A program made the translations under genes and the position numbers. Positions 48,060 through 62,399 of a DNA stretch of 62,763 nucleotides are shown piece after piece. Position 1 is the first letter of the stretch. Every line of letters begins with the position of its first letter. Location: contig CAIPKV010000010.1 of the NCBI GenBank assembly GCA_903865745.1, positions 1 through 62,763 of the forward strand, written 5' to 3'. Under the pieces are notes generated by a model. The model had not been told where the DNA came from. It searched no databases and saw only the letters and a list, made by a program, of their open reading frames with translations. Source of the stretch: an uncultured Verrucomicrobia subdivision 3 bacterium. Lineage in GTDB: Bacteria; Verrucomicrobiota; Verrucomicrobiia; Limisphaerales; UBA11358.

Positions 48060-50099
48060 ATGAAAGCTTGTAGATATGTTCTAAGAATGAAATCGCTAAA
48101 GACTAGACAATCAAAAAGCGGACAGACTGTATCTGAAGAGTCTGTTTATAAGGCATTGCTGTTGGTTCTATTGATTAACCTCCGTTTTGTTTTGGTTGCC
48201 GATGCTCAGTCTAGCTTGAACGTTACCGATTATGGAGCGGTTGGCGATGCTGTTCAATTAAATGTCAACACTACAGCCGGTTCTCCTTTGGTGACAACGG
48301 TTAACCAACTTTCAAGTGCTGATATAGGTAAGTCAATTGAGGTTTTTGGAGTTGGCATGCAAACAATTGGCATAAATTCCTACGGCGTGAACTCTACAAA
48401 TAACCTTGATCTTATTGCTGTCATAACGAATGTGCTCAATGGAACAAACATCTATATTTCTACCGTTCCCCAAGCAACTATACTAAATGCTTTTGCAACT
48501 TACGGGACAGACAATACCCCTGCCATTACCAATGCGATAGCTGCCGCCGGAACCAATGCTATAATCCATTTTCCAAATGGCACTTTTCTTTGTATGCCAA
48601 CCGTTCAGACTCCCGGTGTAGCCTACTCGCTAGCTGCCATATGCCTGCATCGTGGCGGGCTACACTTTCTCGGCAGCGGTTCAACTATATTACTTTCAAG
48701 GGGAGCTTTCCATCCGGAGGATTTTACCGCTTGGGGGTGGGGCAGTAATTCGCCAGCGCGAGGATATTTGTTTGAGGTTGTAGCTCCCATTGCGAATGAT
48801 TTACCCATTATCGTGGACAACCTGACGCTTGATGGCGGTATTCAGCAGGGCAATACCTCTGTGCATGGGAACTACGTTAATAATATTGACGGGCAAGGGT
48901 GGGACGTCGGGCACTGCGCTTGGGTTTGTACGGATAACGGCAATAACACTGGCACGGCTACTCATCAAGTGTTCACGAATGTTACTGTTCAACACTGGCG
49001 TGGTGAAATGTTCAAATCCATAGACCAAAATAATAATGGCAATATTAGCATTCACAATTCGTCATTCATTGACGGTAATGCAACGGCACTGAACATCTAC
49101 GGATCTTGGGATGTGACGAGTAATCAGTTTGTGAACCTGTTTCAAACGGCTGAATATTTTCAGAGCTACTACACCAACACATCTTATTTTCAGAACAACT
49201 TGGTTACTAACATCACCGGAAATGGTTGGGCATGCAATGGAGCGTTAGCGAGTTCCCCGCCGTTTATCATTCGTAGCAATACATTTTACTTTATGGGTTA
49301 TGGCAATAATGGGATTCAAACGGCACCCGGCGCCAACATTTCCGTTTTGAATAATCAGATTTATTGTGCTGATTATATGACGGCTTTTTCTATTGGTGTA
49401 GCAGGTTCACAGGGAACATTCATTAACAGTAATATTTTGATCTCTGGAAATTCGATTTACGCATCAAACAAGTTGACTGCAGTAGTAAGTGGCGGTCCAG
49501 GGAATACGGGCTTTGGTGGTTCCGGCATTTATGCTGTTAATGGATTAACCATTAGCAGCAATATAGTCACGATTTTCAATACTGGTTCTGGTGAAGTGGT
49601 AAATATCATTTCCCAACAAGGTGGGTCTACGAATGTCCGCTTTTACGACAACACTATCAACAGCGTACTTGGAAAATATAACATTGGATCTGGGCAACCG
49701 ATGGCTTTAATCGAGACAAATAACGTTTATAGCGCCGACCAACTTTTCGGAAACACTGGCACCACCAACCTCATTTCCTACGGTGGTGGACCGGTCTATC
49801 CCACCATGTATGTTCAGACAGCGGCGAATTTTGTCCTGGATGATTCTACGCCGAGCCAGATTCCTGCCGGTGCTTATTTGCGCTTTGATAACAGTGTGAA
49901 CACACAAGGCAGCTATTTCTATATATATCCTTCGACGTCATTGGCCAGTTCTATCACTGTGACCAATGGGCAGGTTATAACATTTAATTGGTCCGGCAAG
50001 GCTTGGACGACTAACGCCCAGACATCCTTGCAAAACAGTACCACCAGCACAAACATCGCTCCCCCGCCACCCCCCACCAATTTCAGGGTGCTGAATTGA
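48060..50099 (+). CDS. Secreted right-handed beta-helix protein
   Basis: This 679-residue protein has a long N-terminal signal region (KALLLVLLINLRFVLVADAQ). A pectate-lyase-3-type start follows (LNVTDYGAVGDAVQLNVNTT), then many short repeats rich in Asn, Ser and Gly (NISIHNSSFIDGNATALNIY, ISVLNNQIY), typical of parallel beta helices. Such proteins in EPS loci are often polysaccharide lyases, epimerases or binding proteins. No catalytic triad could be assigned by eye. It ends in a proline tract and PTNFRVLN, like the first strand of a missing fibronectin domain. Confidence 0.8.
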   Translation: MKACRYVLRMKSLKTRQSKSGQTVSEESVYKALLLVLLINLRFVLVADAQSSLNVTDYGAVGDAVQLNVNTTAGSPLVTTVNQLSSADIGKSIEVFGVGMQTIGINSYGVNSTNNLDLIAVITNVLNGTNIYISTVPQATILNAFATYGTDNTPAITNAIAAAGTNAIIHFPNGTFLCMPTVQTPGVAYSLAAICLHRGGLHFLGSGSTILLSRGAFHPEDFTAWGWGSNSPARGYLFEVVAPIANDLPIIVDNLTLDGGIQQGNTSVHGNYVNNIDGQGWDVGHCAWVCTDNGNNTGTATHQVFTNVTVQHWRGEMFKSIDQNNNGNISIHNSSFIDGNATALNIYGSWDVTSNQFVNLFQTAEYFQSYYTNTSYFQNNLVTNITGNGWACNGALASSPPFIIRSNTFYFMGYGNNGIQTAPGANISVLNNQIYCADYMTAFSIGVAGSQGTFINSNILISGNSIYASNKLTAVVSGGPGNTGFGGSGIYAVNGLTISSNIVTIFNTGSGEVVNIISQQGGSTNVRFYDNTINSVLGKYNIGSGQPMALIETNNVYSADQLFGNTGTTNLISYGGGPVYPTMYVQTAANFVLDDSTPSQIPAGAYLRFDNSVNTQGSYFYIYPSTSLASSITVTNGQVITFNWSGKAWTTNAQTSLQNSTTSTNIAPPPPPTNFRVLN

Positions 50100-51400: not shown

Positions 51401-52909
51401 ATGTTACATTTATTGTCCATAATGCCCATTTCGTTTTGGGTTGTAATGGGGCTGCTTGTTGGCGGCGGATATGCTGCTTTGAAGCAATTGGACGACGCTA
51501 CGAGTCTTCCGTCATTAGCCGTATTAGGCACAACTGCCGCGTGGTATGTCGGGGATGCGTTTTACAATGACTACGCCAATAACCACGCTAAAATATTTAC
51601 TGCTGAGACGCTTGCTAGTGCTTGGTGGCAGGTAGCGTGGTTTATCATGGTGATTCTGGTAACGGTGCGTTCATTAAATGAACGGTTAAATGCTCCGCTC
51701 ACAAAGCGCAAAAGTGGCGTGATGCAACTTTTCAAAAATGGTGTCGGCTTTGCGGAAGTTCAAAAACAGTTAAACATCCTGTTTACAGGCTGTGCGATAG
51801 TCTGGACTATTCTATTTGTAATCGCGCTGGTGATTTTGAAAACCGAAATCCCTTATTATTTATTCCCTTTTTTGGGCTATAAGGCCAACCCTTGGTCGCA
51901 CGGTCGCATTGGCTCCGGTTTTGACGCGTTTTCCATTGTTGCAGTTTATTTTCAACTTCTGACAACTTCCATGTTTGGTGTAGTCGCTGCACTGGCTACC
52001 ACGCAACGGGTGCGGCGGTTGGCGCTGATGTTTGTGTTATTGTCATGGCCGGCGTTTATTTTTGACCGCACCCGAAACTCAATGTTGGCGATGGCGGTGC
52101 CCGCTATCTTGAGTTGGGTTTTTCTACGATTACGTGGTGGTATGATAAAAAAAACTCTAGTGCTCTTTTTATGTTTTTTTGTCGTCAATACTTGGATGAA
52201 ATTTATAATCGCAAACCGATCCCAAATGAGCATCACGGCTGCCTTTCATAACAAAGGACTGAATCTATCTGAGCAACAGAAAGTTCACAACGAAGGGTTG
52301 AACATGTTCGAGGAACTTTGTTGGGTTAGCACGTTTATTGATAATGGACGTTATAAAGTTAATTGGGGGCAGCGCTATTTTGCAGAACTGGTGAATCCCA
52401 TTCCACGAGGGTTGTGGCATGGTAAGCCATTAATCGGCCTTGATTATGCCATTGCGCGCGGGCACGGCGATGCCAATGATACCCAAGGCGGTGTCAATAC
52501 AACCATATCAACCGGTTTCATCGGTCAGGGTGTCGTGAATTTTGGACGCTTTCTGGGGCCGGCGGCGGCGGGAATTTTGATGAGCTTGTGGATTGTTTGG
52601 CTCGCGCGGCTTGACCTCACCATTCATCAGCTAGGTCGGCTCCCGCTTTATAGTCTTGGCCTCATTTTGACCTTCAATCTCGGTCGCGACATTACCTTAA
52701 TTACTCTTTATCCATTTGTATTCGGGGCACTTGCTATTTGGTTTCTCGAACATTATCAGATAATCAAACCCTCGCCGGATACAAACACTGATAAACAAGC
52801 CTTTTCACAAAAAAATCCTCGTACTAATGTAACTGTAAAAAATCATTTTGTTTACCGGGCTTCCGGCGGTTTTGTCCGCCGCGATAATTTACAGCATCCA
52901 AAAAAATAG
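51401..52909 (+). CDS. Wzy-like O-antigen/EPS polymerase candidate
   Basis: This 502-residue protein has about ten hydrophobic segments, including FWVVMGLLVGGGYAAL, ALVILKTEIPYYLFPFLG, LSWPAFIFDRTRNSMLAMAV and a large extracytoplasmic loop (about 275-360, containing NMFEELCWVSTFIDNG and NPIPRGLWHGKPL). The FDRTRNSMLA motif and late loop match the O-antigen polymerase/ligase layout. No other gene in the locus fits the Wzy role. Polymerases are too variable for certainty. Confidence 0.7.
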   Translation: MLHLLSIMPISFWVVMGLLVGGGYAALKQLDDATSLPSLAVLGTTAAWYVGDAFYNDYANNHAKIFTAETLASAWWQVAWFIMVILVTVRSLNERLNAPLTKRKSGVMQLFKNGVGFAEVQKQLNILFTGCAIVWTILFVIALVILKTEIPYYLFPFLGYKANPWSHGRIGSGFDAFSIVAVYFQLLTTSMFGVVAALATTQRVRRLALMFVLLSWPAFIFDRTRNSMLAMAVPAILSWVFLRLRGGMIKKTLVLFLCFFVVNTWMKFIIANRSQMSITAAFHNKGLNLSEQQKVHNEGLNMFEELCWVSTFIDNGRYKVNWGQRYFAELVNPIPRGLWHGKPLIGLDYAIARGHGDANDTQGGVNTTISTGFIGQGVVNFGRFLGPAAAGILMSLWIVWLARLDLTIHQLGRLPLYSLGLILTFNLGRDITLITLYPFVFGALAIWFLEHYQIIKPSPDTNTDKQAFSQKNPRTNVTVKNHFVYRASGGFVRRDNLQHPKK

Positions 52910-56002: not shown

Positions 56003-57577
56003 ATGCCTGTTTTAGTAAATAATTTCGTTCGAAAATGGGGGCTTTTGACACTTCCGCTCGGTTACCTATGGATTCGTTTAGTAGATAATTTGGGATTAGA
56101 ATGGTCGTCAAATCCGCAATACAGCTACGGCTTGGTTGTGCCACTATTTGTCGCCGGTCTTATTCTGCGCCGCTTGCATTATGCAAAACAAATTTCACGT
56201 GATAATACAACCAGCGGAAGCACATTCCCGCCGTTGTTACTCTGCGGACTAATAGCTTTTCTTTACTTGCCAACCCGGCTCATTGAGGAGGCAACGCCGG
56301 AATGGCGACCAATTCAATGGCTGCTAGGATTTGAAACTATCGGTTTGACCCTGTATGTGGTCTGGCTTAGCGGTGGCAAATTCTGGCTGCGGCAACTGGC
56401 TTTTCCTATTGGATTTTTTTTGGTTTCGATTCCTTGGCCAACGCTAGTTGAAGCGCCAATCATTCAAGGCTTGAGCCGGATGAACGCCGGTATGGTGGTC
56501 AATGTGCTAGGCTTACTCGGTGTCCCAGCTATTCAGCATGGCAACACCATCGAGGTTAGTACCGGCATCGTAGGCATCAGTGACGCATGTAGCGGCATCC
56601 GATCATTCCAGTCTAGTCTAATGATTTCGTTGTTCCTTGGTGAATACTATTTGTTCAATTTGCAACGACGGATGCTGCTTGTGCCCATCAGCTTTACGCT
56701 GGCGATGTTTCTCAATCTTTGTCGTGCATCATTGCTCACTTGGATTGCAGCAAAAAAAGGAATCGGCGCAATTGCTGAATATCATGATGAGGCAGGCCTA
56801 ACGATTTTGCTCGTCTGCACAGCACTGCTGTGGGGTGCCGCGTGGTTTTTGAATCTGCAAAGAAATTCGACCTTGGTAAAACCATATGCGGAGAAATATT
56901 ACGAGTCCCCAACGGTCGGGGAGAAAATTTATCAGCGTGTCAGTCGGTTTGGGCTGATTTTAATCATCTGGATTATCATCGTAGAATGTAGCGTGGAAAT
57001 GTGGTATCGTGTTCGTGAATCACAATTGCAGCCGACCGTAAACTGGACGGTGAATTATCCGAGGGATAATCCTAGTTATGAGGATGTGCCAATCACAGCC
57101 GATGACCGCACTTTACTAAGGTTTGACGGAGGCCAGAAAGGTCGTTGGCGTGACGCTGATGGCACGGATTGGCAAGCATTTTACTTCACTTGGAACCCAG
57201 GCCGCGTAGCCGGTTACCTCGCCAAGCGCCATACGCCAGATGTTTGCATCACCGCTACCGGTTTAAAAATGATTGGCCGACCGGATATGTCATTTATGAC
57301 CGTCGGACCAGTAGTCTTACCTATGCGCCACTATATTTTTGAAACATCTAGCGGTCCGCTGCAAGTTTACCAATGTCATTGGGAAGCAGGTTTACCACCT
57401 GAAGCATATACCGTTCAGGAATCAACGCGATTCAACCTCATCCGCGGCGTTTGGGCTGGGCGCGGCAATCATGGGCAAAAAGTTTTTGAAGTCATTCTTA
57501 CTGGTTATGAAAATGCCAATAAGGCAGAGGCCTCGCTTAAGCATCGTCTAAACCAGCTAATTAAAATTGAAAACTGA
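56003..57577 (+). CDS. Exosortase with fused EpsI-like C-terminal domain
   Basis: This 524-residue membrane protein has eight or more hydrophobic helices in residues 10-295 and the exosortase active-site set. Cys196 lies in GISDACSGIRSFQ, Arg241 in NLCRAS and His261 in YHDEAG. After a last helix (about 312-330) comes a roughly 190-residue extracytoplasmic domain resembling EpsI (DUF3485), with NYPRDNPSYEDVP and HTPDVCITATGLKM. Exosortases cleave and anchor proteins with PEP-CTERM-like tails in EPS producers. No substrate is visible in the window. The exact subfamily (XrtA, XrtC or other) was not determined. Confidence 0.88.
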   Translation: MPVLVNNFVRKWGLLTLPLGYLWIRLVDNLGLEWSSNPQYSYGLVVPLFVAGLILRRLHYAKQISRDNTTSGSTFPPLLLCGLIAFLYLPTRLIEEATPEWRPIQWLLGFETIGLTLYVVWLSGGKFWLRQLAFPIGFFLVSIPWPTLVEAPIIQGLSRMNAGMVVNVLGLLGVPAIQHGNTIEVSTGIVGISDACSGIRSFQSSLMISLFLGEYYLFNLQRRMLLVPISFTLAMFLNLCRASLLTWIAAKKGIGAIAEYHDEAGLTILLVCTALLWGAAWFLNLQRNSTLVKPYAEKYYESPTVGEKIYQRVSRFGLILIIWIIIVECSVEMWYRVRESQLQPTVNWTVNYPRDNPSYEDVPITADDRTLLRFDGGQKGRWRDADGTDWQAFYFTWNPGRVAGYLAKRHTPDVCITATGLKMIGRPDMSFMTVGPVVLPMRHYIFETSSGPLQVYQCHWEAGLPPEAYTVQESTRFNLIRGVWAGRGNHGQKVFEVILTGYENANKAEASLKHRLNQLIKIEN

Positions 57578-58798
57578 ATGCGAATTCTTCTTGTTAATCA
57601 GGCGTTTCATCCAGATGTAGTCTCAAGTGGACAACATTTGAAAGATCTTGCCATAGCGCTCGCGGAAAGAGGTCACAATGTCACAGTCGTAACCAGCCGT
57701 CGTGCCTACGATGATCCTTACAAACTTTTCCAAAAATGTGAAATATGGCGCGGGATAAAAATATATCGAGTGTTTAACTCTGGTTTTGGAAAGCTCACGA
57801 AATGGCGAAGAGCTGCTGATTTTATGACGTTTCTTATTTCGTGCTCGATGCGAATGTTATCATTGCCGAAACCGGATGTGGTCCTGGCTCTGACGTCGCC
57901 ACCGTTGGTTTCAGTGATTGCTGTCGCTTTCGCCAATCTACGCGGTGCGAAGTTTTGCTACTGGATTATGGATTTGAATCCCGATGAAGCTATTGCTGCT
58001 GGATGGCTTACCCCCAATTCATTCGGGGCGAAATGCTTGGAACGTCTGTCTCTTTATAGCCTGCGCAATGCTGAAAAAATTGTAGTGCTCGACAGATTCA
58101 TGGAAAAACGGATCCTGGATAAAAAAATACCTGCTGAAAAAGTTGTTATTATTCCACCCTGGTCGCACGATTCGGAGATAAAATATGACGAAGTTGGGCG
58201 TTCTCGATTCCGCGCTCTGCACGGACTTCAAAATAAGTTTGTCATCATGTATGCAGGCAACCACAGTCCATGCCATCCGCTCGATACAATTCTCGCTGTC
58301 GCTAAAAAAATGGCAGAGGATGACTTGCAGCTTTTTTTTTGCTTTGTCGGAGGTGGTTCGGAGCATCGCCGCGTCAAAGAATTTGCGTTACTGCATAAAC
58401 TCCAAAACATCCTCTGTTTGCCCTATCAGCCGCTGGAACAGCTCGGAGAAGTTTTATCGGCAGCTGATTTGCACTTCGTTGTAATGGGAAACCCTTTTGT
58501 CGGCCTTGTCCATCCGTGTAAGGCCTATAATCTTTTGCGCATAAATGCACCAATTCTTTATATGGGGCCGCGACCAAGCCACATTTCTGAAATATTGGAT
58601 GAATTGAATAATCAATTAGCGAGTGCAGTTACTTCACACGGAGACGTGACTGCAGCTGTTAAATCAATTCTTGAATTAAAACAAGTCGTGTTCCAAGCTA
58701 AGCGTAAGGATTGCGTGTCTTTGGATGGACGTTATTCTAAAGAAACTTTGCTGCCACAACTGGTGGCTGCGATTGAATCCACTTATCAAAAGAATTGA
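57578..58798 (+). CDS. Glycosyltransferase family 4 (WbuB-like)
   Basis: This 406-residue protein starts MRILLVNQAFHPDVVSSGQH, then ERGHNVTVVTSRRAYDDP, YWIMDLNPDEAIAAGW, and FVGGGSEHRRVKEFALLHKL. This is the layout of WbuB (fucosyl/N-acetylfucosaminyl transferase) type GT4 enzymes. The usual EX7E site is replaced by a shorter LVHPCKAYNLLRINAPIL, common in this subgroup. It starts directly after the exosortase stop. Confidence 0.87.
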   Translation: MRILLVNQAFHPDVVSSGQHLKDLAIALAERGHNVTVVTSRRAYDDPYKLFQKCEIWRGIKIYRVFNSGFGKLTKWRRAADFMTFLISCSMRMLSLPKPDVVLALTSPPLVSVIAVAFANLRGAKFCYWIMDLNPDEAIAAGWLTPNSFGAKCLERLSLYSLRNAEKIVVLDRFMEKRILDKKIPAEKVVIIPPWSHDSEIKYDEVGRSRFRALHGLQNKFVIMYAGNHSPCHPLDTILAVAKKMAEDDLQLFFCFVGGGSEHRRVKEFALLHKLQNILCLPYQPLEQLGEVLSAADLHFVVMGNPFVGLVHPCKAYNLLRINAPILYMGPRPSHISEILDELNNQLASAVTSHGDVTAAVKSILELKQVVFQAKRKDCVSLDGRYSKETLLPQLVAAIESTYQKN

Positions 58799-58834: not shown

Positions 58835-60706
58835 ATGTTTGGTGAGTTGGACGAATATTTGCTGGTTTTTTTGACCGGCCTTCTCGTAACCTATCTGCTA
58901 ACGCCGATAGTACGCAAAATTGCGTTTAGATTTGGGGTTGTCGACAAGCCTGACGAGCGGCGAACGCACAAGCGCATAACCGCCCGTGGCGGTGGCGTTG
59001 CTGTGGTAATTGGTGTTCACGGGGCATGTCTTTTGGCGGTGTTGTTTCCCTGGTCGCATTCAAGTGGCGTGCTGGATTTTGCCTGGTGGCAAAAATATGC
59101 GTTGGCTTCAGTGGTGCTACTGGTGGTAGGCGTGGTTGACGATGTGCGCGGGATGCGACCGTTGGTAAAACTCGGCGGTCAAATCCTAGCAGCGTTAGTA
59201 ATGTGGTTTTCAGGAACGCATTTTGGGACTTTCCTTGGCCATGATTTGCCAGCGCCGATGGATTGTGCGCTTGTTGTAATCTGGCTTGTGGCGATCATCA
59301 ATGCCTTCAACCTGATTGATGGTCTTGATGGCTTGGCGTCAGGGCTAGCTGGTATTTCTGCCGTTGGTCTCACTGGAATTTTGTTGATGCAGCAAATTCC
59401 CGGAGAGGTGTTGCTGCTGGCCGGCTTCATTGGTGCTTGCTTGGGATTTCTACGCTACAATTTTCATCCGGCGAGTATTTTTCTAGGTGACACCGGAAGT
59501 ATGTTTCTCGGATTTACCCTCGGAGTGGTAGCCTTGCAGACATTCACGAAAAACACTTTTCTTATTTCCATGACGATTCCCATCATGGTTTTGGGCGTGC
59601 CAATTTACGATGCTCTGCTGGCAATCTGGCGGCGCTCAATCCGGTCATGGGTTAGCGGTACCGGCGGCAAACGGGGAATTATGCAGCCAGACGTAGATCA
59701 CCTACATCACCGTCTGGCAAAATCTGGTTTGAGCACTCAACGCGTGGCGACTTTTCTATATATATTGAACGGTGGCCTAGTGACGGTCGGGCTTTCCATC
59801 ATGTTTTTCCAGTCGCATGCGGCCGGAATATTTCTTATAGCTTTGCTGGCCGGCGTGTATGTTCTCATGCGGCAATTGGCTGTTATTGAATTGCGCGAAA
59901 CGGGCCGGGCCTTGTTGATGGGCTTGCACCGTCCAACTCATGCGACGTCCAAGGCGTTGGCCTATCCGATTTGGGATATGTTTTGTTTGTCCGGTTCGCT
60001 GGCGGCGATTATGTGGGAGATTGAGGGGCAGCGCACAGATTTCTGGCACACCTGGTTTGTAGATTTACCGGTCTGGGCGACGCCGACGTTTTCGCTACTC
60101 GCGTTATCGCGAACTTACATCACCGAATGGCAGCGAGCCAGGTTGCGTGATGTGCTCATGGTCCTGTGCTGGCTTTTCTCGGGAACTCTCTTAAGCTTGG
60201 GGCTGGCGTTGGTCATTGATCCGGCCAATGGTTCAAAATGGCTGATTCGCGCGGTGCTCTTAGCCGGCATAAGTCATCCGGTTATTATAGCTTCGCGGCT
60301 GGTTTATCGGTGCATCGAGGAAGTAGTCCTGTGGCTGCGGCGGCACGATGATGCCACAAACCAACTGGAACGTGTGTTGCTTTATGGCGCCGGCACTCGG
60401 GCACAACTTTTTCTAAAGGATCGCGCTCTTAAAGTTTCAAAAAAGTCGGATCGACGGCACCTAATCGGTTTCATTGATGATGAAAAGTCCCTACATTTTC
60501 AATGGGTTTATGGGTTACTAGTACTGGGTGGACTAAAGGAGTTGCCGTATCTTATTGAACGTCGGCGGGTGCACCGGATTATAATAGTGTCCGAACTTTT
60601 ACCAGAAAGCCGAACGGCTCTTCCGGAAATTGCGGCGAGCGGCGGCGTTAAATTGAGCGAATGGGAGCCTGCTGAACATGAGATCAGCCTTTCCCCAAAA
60701 GTATAA
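58835..60706 (+). CDS. WecA/MraY-like initiating transferase fused to FlaA1-like membrane and Rossmann modules
   Basis: This 623-residue protein has a polyprenyl-phosphate sugar-1-phosphate transferase domain (about 1-330). It shows GVVDDVRGMRP, NAFNLIDGLDGLASG, FLGDTGSMFLGF and the HHRLAKSGLS loop, which are the metal and substrate motifs of WecA/TagO. A second helical block (about 365-490) and a Rossmann-type nucleotide-binding segment (RVLLYGAGTRAQLFLKD, about 510-600) follow. These two match the N-terminal half of FlaA1/CapD-type proteins, but the catalytic short-chain dehydrogenase domain of FlaA1 is absent. It should start EPS repeat-unit synthesis on undecaprenyl phosphate. Confidence 0.88.
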   Translation: MFGELDEYLLVFLTGLLVTYLLTPIVRKIAFRFGVVDKPDERRTHKRITARGGGVAVVIGVHGACLLAVLFPWSHSSGVLDFAWWQKYALASVVLLVVGVVDDVRGMRPLVKLGGQILAALVMWFSGTHFGTFLGHDLPAPMDCALVVIWLVAIINAFNLIDGLDGLASGLAGISAVGLTGILLMQQIPGEVLLLAGFIGACLGFLRYNFHPASIFLGDTGSMFLGFTLGVVALQTFTKNTFLISMTIPIMVLGVPIYDALLAIWRRSIRSWVSGTGGKRGIMQPDVDHLHHRLAKSGLSTQRVATFLYILNGGLVTVGLSIMFFQSHAAGIFLIALLAGVYVLMRQLAVIELRETGRALLMGLHRPTHATSKALAYPIWDMFCLSGSLAAIMWEIEGQRTDFWHTWFVDLPVWATPTFSLLALSRTYITEWQRARLRDVLMVLCWLFSGTLLSLGLALVIDPANGSKWLIRAVLLAGISHPVIIASRLVYRCIEEVVLWLRRHDDATNQLERVLLYGAGTRAQLFLKDRALKVSKKSDRRHLIGFIDDEKSLHFQWVYGLLVLGGLKELPYLIERRRVHRIIIVSELLPESRTALPEIAASGGVKLSEWEPAEHEISLSPKV

Positions 60707-60731
60707 AACTAATTTAGCAACTAAATTTATA

Positions 60732-62399
60732 ATGCGCAAAACCATCATCGTTATTGTCAGTTCCATCATCCTGCTATTGCTTGGCTATGTTGGGTATCGC
60801 AGCTTCAAGATTTGGAAACAAGATCACTGGCTAAAAATGGCGCTAGATTTTGCGGCTAAAGGTGACGTTCGGGCCGAGCTGCTTAGCCTCCGGCAGGTGC
60901 TGAATTTGAACCCGCAAAATCCTACCGCCTGTCGACTTATGGCTGAAATGGCCGAAACGACGCACTCGGATTCCGCACTAATTTGGCGGCAAAGATTGGT
61001 AGATTTAAACCCTAATTCGCTAGTTGACCGGCTGGCTTTGATACAGACAGCGATGGCGTTTGGCGATTTGGCCATTGCCTCTAACGCGCTGGCTGGCGTG
61101 GCTCCCGCAGATCAGAAATCAGCACTTTACCAAAATACCGCTGGCCTTTTGGCATCTGGGGCGGGGGATGTTGCTACTGCCAAAAGTCATTTTTTGGAAG
61201 CCATCAAATTAGAGCCCGCCAATTATATCCCGCAGCTAAACCTGGCGGCCCTAGAATTACGCGGGCAAAACCCGAACGAAGCCATGGCAGCACGCGCTAG
61301 TTTGAGGCAAATCAGCCTGACCTCAACAAATCTAATCGTGAGCAACCAGGCAAAGCGTGAACTCATTGTGGATGCGCTACGTTTGAATAATTTCCCCGCC
61401 GCCGAGGCAATGGCGAGAGATCTGGTCAAGCCGGCCAATGCGGAATTTTCCGACCGGTTGCTATTTTTGGAAGTGTTGCTCAAGGACAAAAGCCCTGAAT
61501 TGGACGCCATACTGGCCGTTTGCGAACATGACGCTGCCGGTGACTCTGTCAAGCTATCTAGCATGGCAGTTTGGTTGATGAAAAACCGCTCGCCTGGACA
61601 ATCGTTGGCTTGGTTGCAAACCCTGCCAAAATCACTCCAAACCAACCAACCAGTAATGCCTTTGATGGGAGAATGTCTTTTGCGCATGGGTGACTGGCAC
61701 CGCCTTCAAGCTAACATTCAAAATCAGAACTGGATTGAATTGGAATTTGTGCGCCACGCTTTTCTGGCCCGAGCCTTGCGCGGTCAGGATTTAAGAGATG
61801 CCAGTACCGGTGAATGGGCTGTGGCGTTGAACCTTGCTAATAACAATAAGGGAGAATTAATTTCCCTGTTTCGAATGGCGGCGGCTTGGGATTGGTCCAA
61901 TGAAGCGGATGAAATACTCTGGCTGGTGGTAAACCATTATCCTGAGGAACATTGGGCGCCGCCAGTGCTCATGCAATCATTAATCAACGGTGGCCGGACG
62001 CGATCGTTGTTGCAATTATTCAGCCTCCTCTCCAGTCGTAACCCAGGCGACCTGGAGATGAAAAACAATCTGGCGTTTACCGCTCTGTTACTCGGTGCCC
62101 AGGAATTGAATCCGAATGATATCGCTCTTGAAGTTTATAAGAAATCACCCAAAAGTCCTGCGTTTGCTGCTACATATGCCTATTCGCTCTACCAGCAAAG
62201 ACGCTACGCCGACGCGCTCAAAGTGATGCAGGGTTTAAGTGATAAGGAATTGGAAAATCCGGCAGTAGCTGGGTATTACGGTATCATTCTCAAAGCAACC
62301 GGGAGTGTGGCGAAGTCAAAAACTTATCTGCGGACGGCTCTTACAATCAAACTCCTGCCCGAAGAGCAGGTGATTTTTCAACAGGTATTAATCAATTAA
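60732..62399 (+). CDS. Membrane-anchored TPR-repeat protein
   Basis: This 555-residue protein has an N-terminal helix (TIIVIVSSIILLLLGYVGYR) with no clear cleavage site, so it is probably anchored with the rest in the periplasm. Multiple tetratricopeptide-like repeats follow (KGDVRAELLSLRQVLNLNPQ, YQNTAGLLASGAGDVATAKS, AGYYGIILKATGSVAKSKTY). Exosortase EPS loci in proteobacteria also contain a TPR protein, which is thought to scaffold the synthesis complex; a similar role is inferred. ATG 60732 is chosen because an upstream ATG at 60678 overlaps the preceding gene. Confidence 0.83.
   Translation: MRKTIIVIVSSIILLLLGYVGYRSFKIWKQDHWLKMALDFAAKGDVRAELLSLRQVLNLNPQNPTACRLMAEMAETTHSDSALIWRQRLVDLNPNSLVDRLALIQTAMAFGDLAIASNALAGVAPADQKSALYQNTAGLLASGAGDVATAKSHFLEAIKLEPANYIPQLNLAALELRGQNPNEAMAARASLRQISLTSTNLIVSNQAKRELIVDALRLNNFPAAEAMARDLVKPANAEFSDRLLFLEVLLKDKSPELDAILAVCEHDAAGDSVKLSSMAVWLMKNRSPGQSLAWLQTLPKSLQTNQPVMPLMGECLLRMGDWHRLQANIQNQNWIELEFVRHAFLARALRGQDLRDASTGEWAVALNLANNNKGELISLFRMAAAWDWSNEADEILWLVVNHYPEEHWAPPVLMQSLINGGRTRSLLQLFSLLSSRNPGDLEMKNNLAFTALLLGAQELNPNDIALEVYKKSPKSPAFAATYAYSLYQQRRYADALKVMQGLSDKELENPAVAGYYGIILKATGSVAKSKTYLRTALTIKLLPEEQVIFQQVLIN

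Follow-up and report, generated by a model that had tools for sequence, protein, structure and literature searches.

A polytopic phosphoglycosyl transferase fused to a FlaA1/WbaP-type membrane module in Verrucomicrobiota

Results

The fusion gene and its anatomy

The gene at positions 58835-60706 of the window (the whole stretch of 62,763 nucleotides that was analyzed, from an uncultured Verrucomicrobia subdivision 3 bacterium) encodes a WecA/MraY-type polytopic phosphoglycosyl transferase (PGT) that is followed, in the same polypeptide, by a membrane bundle and a Rossmann-like domain of the kind found in the front half of FlaA1/CapD dehydratases and in the WbaP-type large monotopic PGTs (LgPGTs). 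The fusion is real and widespread in its phylum, with ordinary parts in an unusual combination that is apparently uncharacterized, and its product is probably an initiator transferase with its own regulatory part. The features to which the text refers are as follows.

58835-60706, + strand: fusion gene, polytopic PGT, four-TM bundle and PF13727-type Rossmann domain (623 aa; stop included)
58835-59869, + strand: WecA/MraY-type catalytic domain, residues 1-345 (PF00953, motifs, PDB sequence matches)
59930-60349, + strand: four-helix membrane bundle, residues about 366-505 (hydropathy, positive-inside pattern, module model, WbaP 8t53 alignment)
60350-60703, + strand: Rossmann-like domain, residues about 506-623, predicted cytoplasmic (PF13727 in relatives; 3nkl structure match)
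Catalytic-half motifs: GVVDD 99-103, NAFNLIDGLDG 156-166, FLGD 216-219, DVDHLHH 286-292
Rossmann-domain motifs: LLYGAG 515-520, FIDDE 546-550, VLGG 563-566, W610
56003-57577, + strand: exosortase-family protein, two genes upstream (PF09721, E 5.7e-39)
57578-58798, + strand: WcaI-like glycosyltransferase, directly upstream (NF007640, 130.2 of 276 bits, below the cut-off)
60678-62399, + strand: TPR protein, directly downstream (TPR matches, weak PrsT match)

The open reading frame listing gives the gene as one uninterrupted frame of 623 codons with an ATG start, and together with Pfam and NCBIfam it bears out the coordinates and domain order of the preliminary description. In the Pfam scan of the 623-residue protein at E ≤ 0.1, PF00953 and PF13727 were matched and no further family; neither a dehydratase (SDR) nor a monotopic-transferase family was found at that limit, in keeping with the earlier statement that the catalytic dehydratase domain is missing, and the protein terminates at residue 623, 13 residues past W610. 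An assembly artifact or a frameshift join was considered and is excluded by nine other genomes that match the whole protein at 57-88% identity and by the conserved gene order.

The hydropathy profile was read as 15 transmembrane segments. The catalytic half accounts for 11 of these, with one pair merged at 309-345, and the bundle for the other four. Loops rich in K/R (24-56, 259-308, 346-376, 424-442 and beyond 488) lie on one side and alternate with K/R-poor loops, so that the cytoplasm is predicted to hold the Rossmann domain as well as the junction where the catalytic half ends and the bundle begins. WecA has 11 transmembrane segments and its C terminus inside, and with a cytoplasmic junction as predicted, a WecA part and a FlaA1/LgPGT module could be joined with neither topology broken. 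The full-length structure model (mean pLDDT 56.9, pTM 0.42, 14 alignment rows) is poor in the catalytic half, with pLDDT below 50 at residues 156-365, which counts against reading contacts between module and active site from it, and a PDB structure search with this model returned no row at E ≤ 0.001.

The catalytic half

The preliminary description of this half as a complete WecA-type initiator is confirmed by a strong match to PF00953 (Glycos_transf_4) over residues 88-235 (E 1.8e-36, 126 bits against a cut-off of 27) and by intact catalytic motifs. The same family is matched at E ≤ 0.1 by all of 30 diverse fusions, which were the best-scoring loci of a survey of the phylum and so not a random selection. 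Residues D102, D103, N156, N159, D162, D219, D286, H289, H291 and H292 are invariant in these 30 and in all members of a second set of 40, picked from the same survey list and overlapping the first; the DD pair, NxxNxxDGxDG and HxHH we take to be the catalytic motif residues of PF00953 polytopic transferases. A strict motif pattern missed the DD motif in 25 of the 40 fusions and the third motif in eight; the DD pattern had a fixed glycine at position 106, which varies among the 40. Sequences of MraY and DPAGT1 in the PDB are matched by the catalytic half, and in NCBIfam the E. coli-type WecA model TIGR02380 covers residues 10-319 at 97.8 bits, far short of its cut-off of 326.05, with two MraY models also matching the protein. 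From its sequence the enzyme half looks active, and its reaction would most likely be the transfer of a UDP-activated HexNAc-1-phosphate to undecaprenyl phosphate, as the first step towards the repeat unit of the surface polysaccharide that the locus produces.

Identity of the C-terminal module

By profile and predicted fold, the C-terminal module belongs to a family common to the FlaA1/CapD dehydratases and the WbaP-type LgPGTs. PF13727 (CoA_binding_3) lies at residues 443-585 with a score below the Pfam cut-off (E 0.0076, 16.7 bits against 25), and among 10 close relatives, the fusion protein included, it reaches E ≤ 0.1 in just two; the doubt raised by this score is removed by 24 of the 30 divergent full-length fusions, which match at E ≤ 0.1 with a best value of 1.4e-11. 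In 145 genomes of the phylum, PF13727 loci above the cut-off coincide with fusion genes (G132:C12 at 43.6 bits, G145:C37 at 40.4 bits). Two NCBIfam models of polysaccharide glycosylphosphotransferases also match, TIGR03025 over residues 380-593 (E 1.5e-8) and TIGR03023 over residues 387-589, both by the N-terminal part of the model only, with the matches ending at model position 203-204 of 445-453. In the Rossmann part, G518 and G565 are invariant in the 30 fusions and in the 40 of the overlapping set, and G518 is common to all 58 rows of an alignment of fusions, FlaA1 and LgPGT proteins. Counted per column, D548 and D549 are each kept in 36 of the 40 fusions of the second set, and the 548-549 pair in 77% of fusion, 88-100% of FlaA1 and 35-40% of LgPGT rows, while W610 is kept in 97% of the 30 fusions but in 22 of the 40 of the second, overlapping set.

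The preliminary description had proposed a domain search and structure prediction as checks, and the structural comparisons agree with the profiles in placing the module in the FlaA1/LgPGT family. A profile of the 30 fusions matches residues 3-96 of PDB entry 3nkl (E 0.00033), deposited as UDP-D-quinovosamine 4-dehydrogenase, and the AlphaFold2 model made for residues 364-623 (mean pLDDT 80.9, 14 rows) shows four long helices and, after them, an alpha/beta domain. In a Foldseek search with this model, 3nkl came first at E 8.2e-6 and WbaP 8t53 came fourth at E 3.8e-4. In VIA-align the model superposes on 3nkl with Z 13.9 and rmsd 2.5 over 108 aligned residues, and on WbaP 8t53 with Z 9.7 over 208 aligned residues that cover both bundle and domain, the rmsd of 13.0 in the latter case indicating that bundle and domain are differently angled or imprecisely modeled. 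Because many Rex repressor chains stand in the same list at Z 9.3-11.7, beside WbaP at 9.7, fold alone singles out neither WbaP nor a ligand. The PF13727 match reaches position 148 of 175 and the protein stops shortly after, with the last strand pair still present in the model; with the domain ending so soon after the fifth strand, the beta-hairpin that forms the dimer in WbaP may be absent or reduced here.

The Rex matches raise an alternative in which the Rossmann domain would sense NAD(H), as Rex repressors do, and so link initiation to redox state. The glycine loop of the module and the position of the Rex-family chains, next after 3nkl, speak for this, yet a Rossmann fold match cannot by itself reveal a ligand, the Z of 3nkl exceeds the best of the Rex rows (13.9 versus 11.7), and published ligand screening of the related domain in WbaP favors uridine nucleotides: according to PMC10942596, the isolated domain (residues 146-272) is stabilized by UMP, UDP and UTP and destabilized by UDP-Gal. 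We therefore regard NAD(H) sensing as improbable.

A module closer to FlaA1 than to LgPGT by profile

Front-half profiles were built from 20 LgPGT and 8 FlaA1 proteins of the same phylum, 28 of 31 loci that could be classed by sequence motif; L081, L083 and L087 were missed by the motifs and left out. All of 30 fusion modules scored higher with the FlaA1 profile (38.5-89.7 bits) than with the LgPGT profile (10.5-52.5 bits), in line with the preliminary description of a second membrane block and a Rossmann segment like the N terminus of FlaA1. Shuffled copies of the modules reached at most 0.8 bits against both profiles, and with random LgPGT subsets of eight, 0 of 300 comparisons favored LgPGT. 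When members were held out, 28 of 28 preferred the profile of their own family, with narrow margins for two LgPGTs (L086, 62.6 versus 61.3 bits, and L023, 34.5 versus 28.5 bits), which indicate that divergent members are poorly captured by the LgPGT profile. Held-out LgPGTs scored 28.0-88.0 bits on the FlaA1 profile, suggesting that the fusion module is about as distant from FlaA1 as the LgPGTs are, and on these scores the module is a third branch of the family, not a recent copy of FlaA1. In hhalign the module aligned with the FlaA1 front half at 99.7% over 237 columns and with the LgPGT front half at 98.9% over 222 columns. Searched alone against plasmid records with an E limit of 10, the module matched 22 of them, the best at E 5e-5 and many rows weak; among the 20 matches listed, the annotation at the match is NDP-sugar epimerase/dehydratase in 12, lacking in eight and in no case a sugar transferase. 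Profile preference and plasmid annotation together make "FlaA1 front half" a better label than LgPGT. A likeness of the WbaP module to PglF-like dehydratases is itself remarked on in PMC10942596.

Distribution, origin and selection

The preliminary description implied that the fusion was rare, which did not hold: at least 113 of 387 genomes of the phylum, its own included, have a near end-to-end match, from model position ≤30 to ≥540 (at most three candidates scored per genome, matches to near E 1e-45). These comprise the genome itself, four of the same class and 108 of the same phylum, and among the matches listed a further 12 genomes have matches that end at model position 440-539 and three have a cut start. 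A recent local fusion was also considered and is excluded by this spread. In a closer sample of 59 genomes, its own included, there were 10 whole-protein matches, the nine others being those at 57-88% identity; all 10 belonged to the 36 genomes from the same genus, and the 23 genomes of other families in the order gave no match past residue 357. A scan of genome contigs with two narrow peptide patterns yielded 13 close relatives, seven of them labeled Limisphaerales or Verrucomicrobia subdivision 3 and the rest bearing other or broader names. In 72,556 plasmid records there was no match over 80% of the fusion protein, and the 19 records that match it do so only within residues 4-326. Within its own genome there are also an LgPGT-like gene (C60, by motif class) and two other frames that resemble the catalytic half at 36% and 40% identity.

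A single old origin of the fusion fits the tree of the catalytic domain, in which 34 fusion rows lie on one side of a branch and 11 other rows on the other (support 95/95, 94% of bootstrap trees); this tree is unrooted, has a small non-fusion sample and a very long branch for L003, and leaves out L002, in which the motif was missed. Among 14 close relatives, the dN/dS range was 0.05-0.11 in the catalytic half and 0.06-0.14 in the bundle (nine pairs each, dS being saturated in 2 of 11), and in the Rossmann part it was 0.07-0.25 (11 pairs); the ratios are rough, as dS often approaches or exceeds 1, and the pairs share sequences. The dN of the Rossmann part exceeds that of the catalytic half in all 11 pairs. 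Going by these ratios, the module is under purifying selection, somewhat weaker than that on the enzyme half. It might alternatively be an inert remnant of an old gene fusion, a view to which the faster change of the Rossmann part and the lack of any dehydratase or transferase domain after the module lend something, but dN/dS values well below 1 for that part in 11 of 11 pairs, the retention of the module across the phylum and the invariance of G518 and G565 in 40 of 40 fusions make this highly improbable.

Locus context

Judged by its gene content, the fusion gene sits in an EPS-type locus, with a polysaccharide export protein, a Wzc-like ATPase, an ABC transporter, several glycosyltransferases, a WcaF-like acetyltransferase, the exosortase, the WcaI-like protein, the fusion and the TPR protein. 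Among the NCBIfam models the XrtD type fits the exosortase best, although its 109.6 bits fall short of the cut-off of 400. No flippase was recognized among the scanned frames of the locus, and a putative polymerase at 51401-52909 scores 16.6 bits, below the model cut-off of 40, so that the assignment of the pathway is incomplete. For a frame of 679 residues in the middle of the locus (48060-50099), Pfam gave nothing below E 0.087 and NCBIfam nothing at E ≤ 0.01. The TPR frame opens at 60678, inside the fusion gene; the ATG at 60732 is a likelier start and fits the start MRKTIIV of the neighbor in locus L006.

Among the 13 close relatives, the TPR protein is downstream in 12, the WcaI-like protein upstream in 11 and an exosortase nearby in nine, some of the gaps being due to contig ends. 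Across 40 fusion stretches from the whole phylum, an exosortase model was matched in four and a TPR model in none. The L119 fusion lies near BacA/UppP and a SIS-CBS protein, with no recognizable EPS locus among 10 neighbors scanned, and the L134 fusion near RodA- and PBP-like genes, with none among eight. These differing settings indicate that the module is not tied to an exosortase locus. Nor is a fixed pairing of module and FlaA1 within a locus supported, the FlaA1 motif being found in 2 of the 40 stretches, some of which end at contig ends.

This variety of neighbors bears on the possibility that the module is mainly a platform for protein-protein contacts, setting the oligomeric state or docking a response regulator or the next glycosyltransferase, with any ligand secondary. 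Precedents exist in that the dimer interface of WbaP lies mostly within the PF13727-type domain (PMC10942596), and in that a response regulator is proposed, with structural modeling, to promote the active dimer of Myxococcus EpsZ (PMC12802240). We nevertheless consider this rather unlikely for the fusion, in which the hairpin of the WbaP dimer appears reduced and which has no constant partner gene, as the exosortase and TPR counts and the dissimilar L119 and L134 neighborhoods illustrate.

Discussion

Product feedback as a possible function

UMP is a by-product of WecA-type enzymes. It is also inhibitory to full-length WbaP (apparent IC50 4.1 uM), for which a regulation that spares undecaprenyl phosphate has been proposed (PMC10942596). 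The idea in the preliminary description that the Rossmann part could bind a nucleotide or sugar nucleotide and regulate initiation is plausible and has this precedent in WbaP. Given this precedent, and given that the polytopic enzymes release the same by-product, we propose that the module provides product feedback. The Rossmann domain would bind a uridine nucleotide, most simply the by-product UMP; as product accumulated, the module would turn the attached transferase down; and the shared pool of undecaprenyl phosphate would thereby be protected, as proposed for WbaP. The whole reading, of an initiating polytopic PGT whose uridine-nucleotide-binding module provides product feedback, is one that we put forward tentatively, as quite possible. 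It is counted against this reading that the module is nearer to FlaA1 by profile, whereas the ligand screen was made on WbaP, an LgPGT.

A broader suggestion, which is more doubtful, is that the module may be a transferable device through which uridine nucleotides govern the assembly of lipid-linked sugars. In this view it has been attached to enzymes of three unrelated kinds (dehydratases, monotopic transferases and, in the opposite order, polytopic transferases), and it would give the WecA-type initiators of this phylum a UMP feedback without equivalent in plain WecA. Undecaprenyl phosphate is common to peptidoglycan and other envelope glycans, and the fusion bears on the question of how cells keep one pathway from exhausting it. 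A module that can be removed from, or compared between, two unrelated enzymes with the same by-product would also allow a clean test.

In open-access PMC literature, covered by the titles and starts of abstracts that were listed, in one case 30 of 821, no description of a polytopic PGT carrying this module was found. A network analysis of monotopic PGTs was reportedly published in PNAS in 2021. The preliminary description had supposed the sensor-enzyme arrangement to be undescribed; for polytopic PGTs this stands within those searches, while for LgPGTs the arrangement is described in PMC10942596. A proposed nucleotide-sensing module on large monotopic PGTs is thus already described, and what our searches did not turn up is the module on a polytopic PGT.

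Comparison with known systems

The fusion shares its catalytic domain and motifs with the polytopic PGTs WecA, MraY and DPAGT1, and differs from them in carrying 260 further residues, the poly-PGT domains being entered as "PGT only" in Table 1 of PMC10942596. A second extended polytopic type was observed in eight loci from genomes of the same order (L013-L016 and L019-L022), in which PF00953 is followed, in the same order as in the fusion, by about 150 residues. Unlike the fusion, these have soluble tails without a second membrane bundle, as judged by eye. No Pfam family was found in more than one of the eight tails, and a profile of seven of them found no PDB relative better than E 0.1; a "GAF-like" identity was dropped on both grounds. 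In genome G026, a fusion like that of the window (C106) occurs together with a 533-residue frame (C186) matched only over 9-334.

With the FlaA1/CapD/PglF dehydratases the fusion has in common the bundle and the Rossmann domain, which give the best profile match and, in 3nkl, the best solved structure. In the fusion, however, the module is C-terminal to another enzyme and no SDR dehydratase domain was found, and the FlaA1 segment G...R.V...DLLGR is without counterpart.

The LgPGTs of the WbaP/WcaJ type carry the same module beside an enzyme of the same reaction kind. The catalytic domain of the fusion comes instead from the polytopic superfamily, with no monotopic domain matched in Pfam at E ≤ 0.1, and its module is C-terminal where theirs is N-terminal, has an apparently reduced beta-hairpin and scores lower with their profile. 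According to PMC10942596, the catalytic domains of initiating transferases differ in structure between the two superfamilies. That one accessory module occurs in both superfamilies, in opposite orders, is an argument that it serves the reaction and does not belong to a single catalytic fold.
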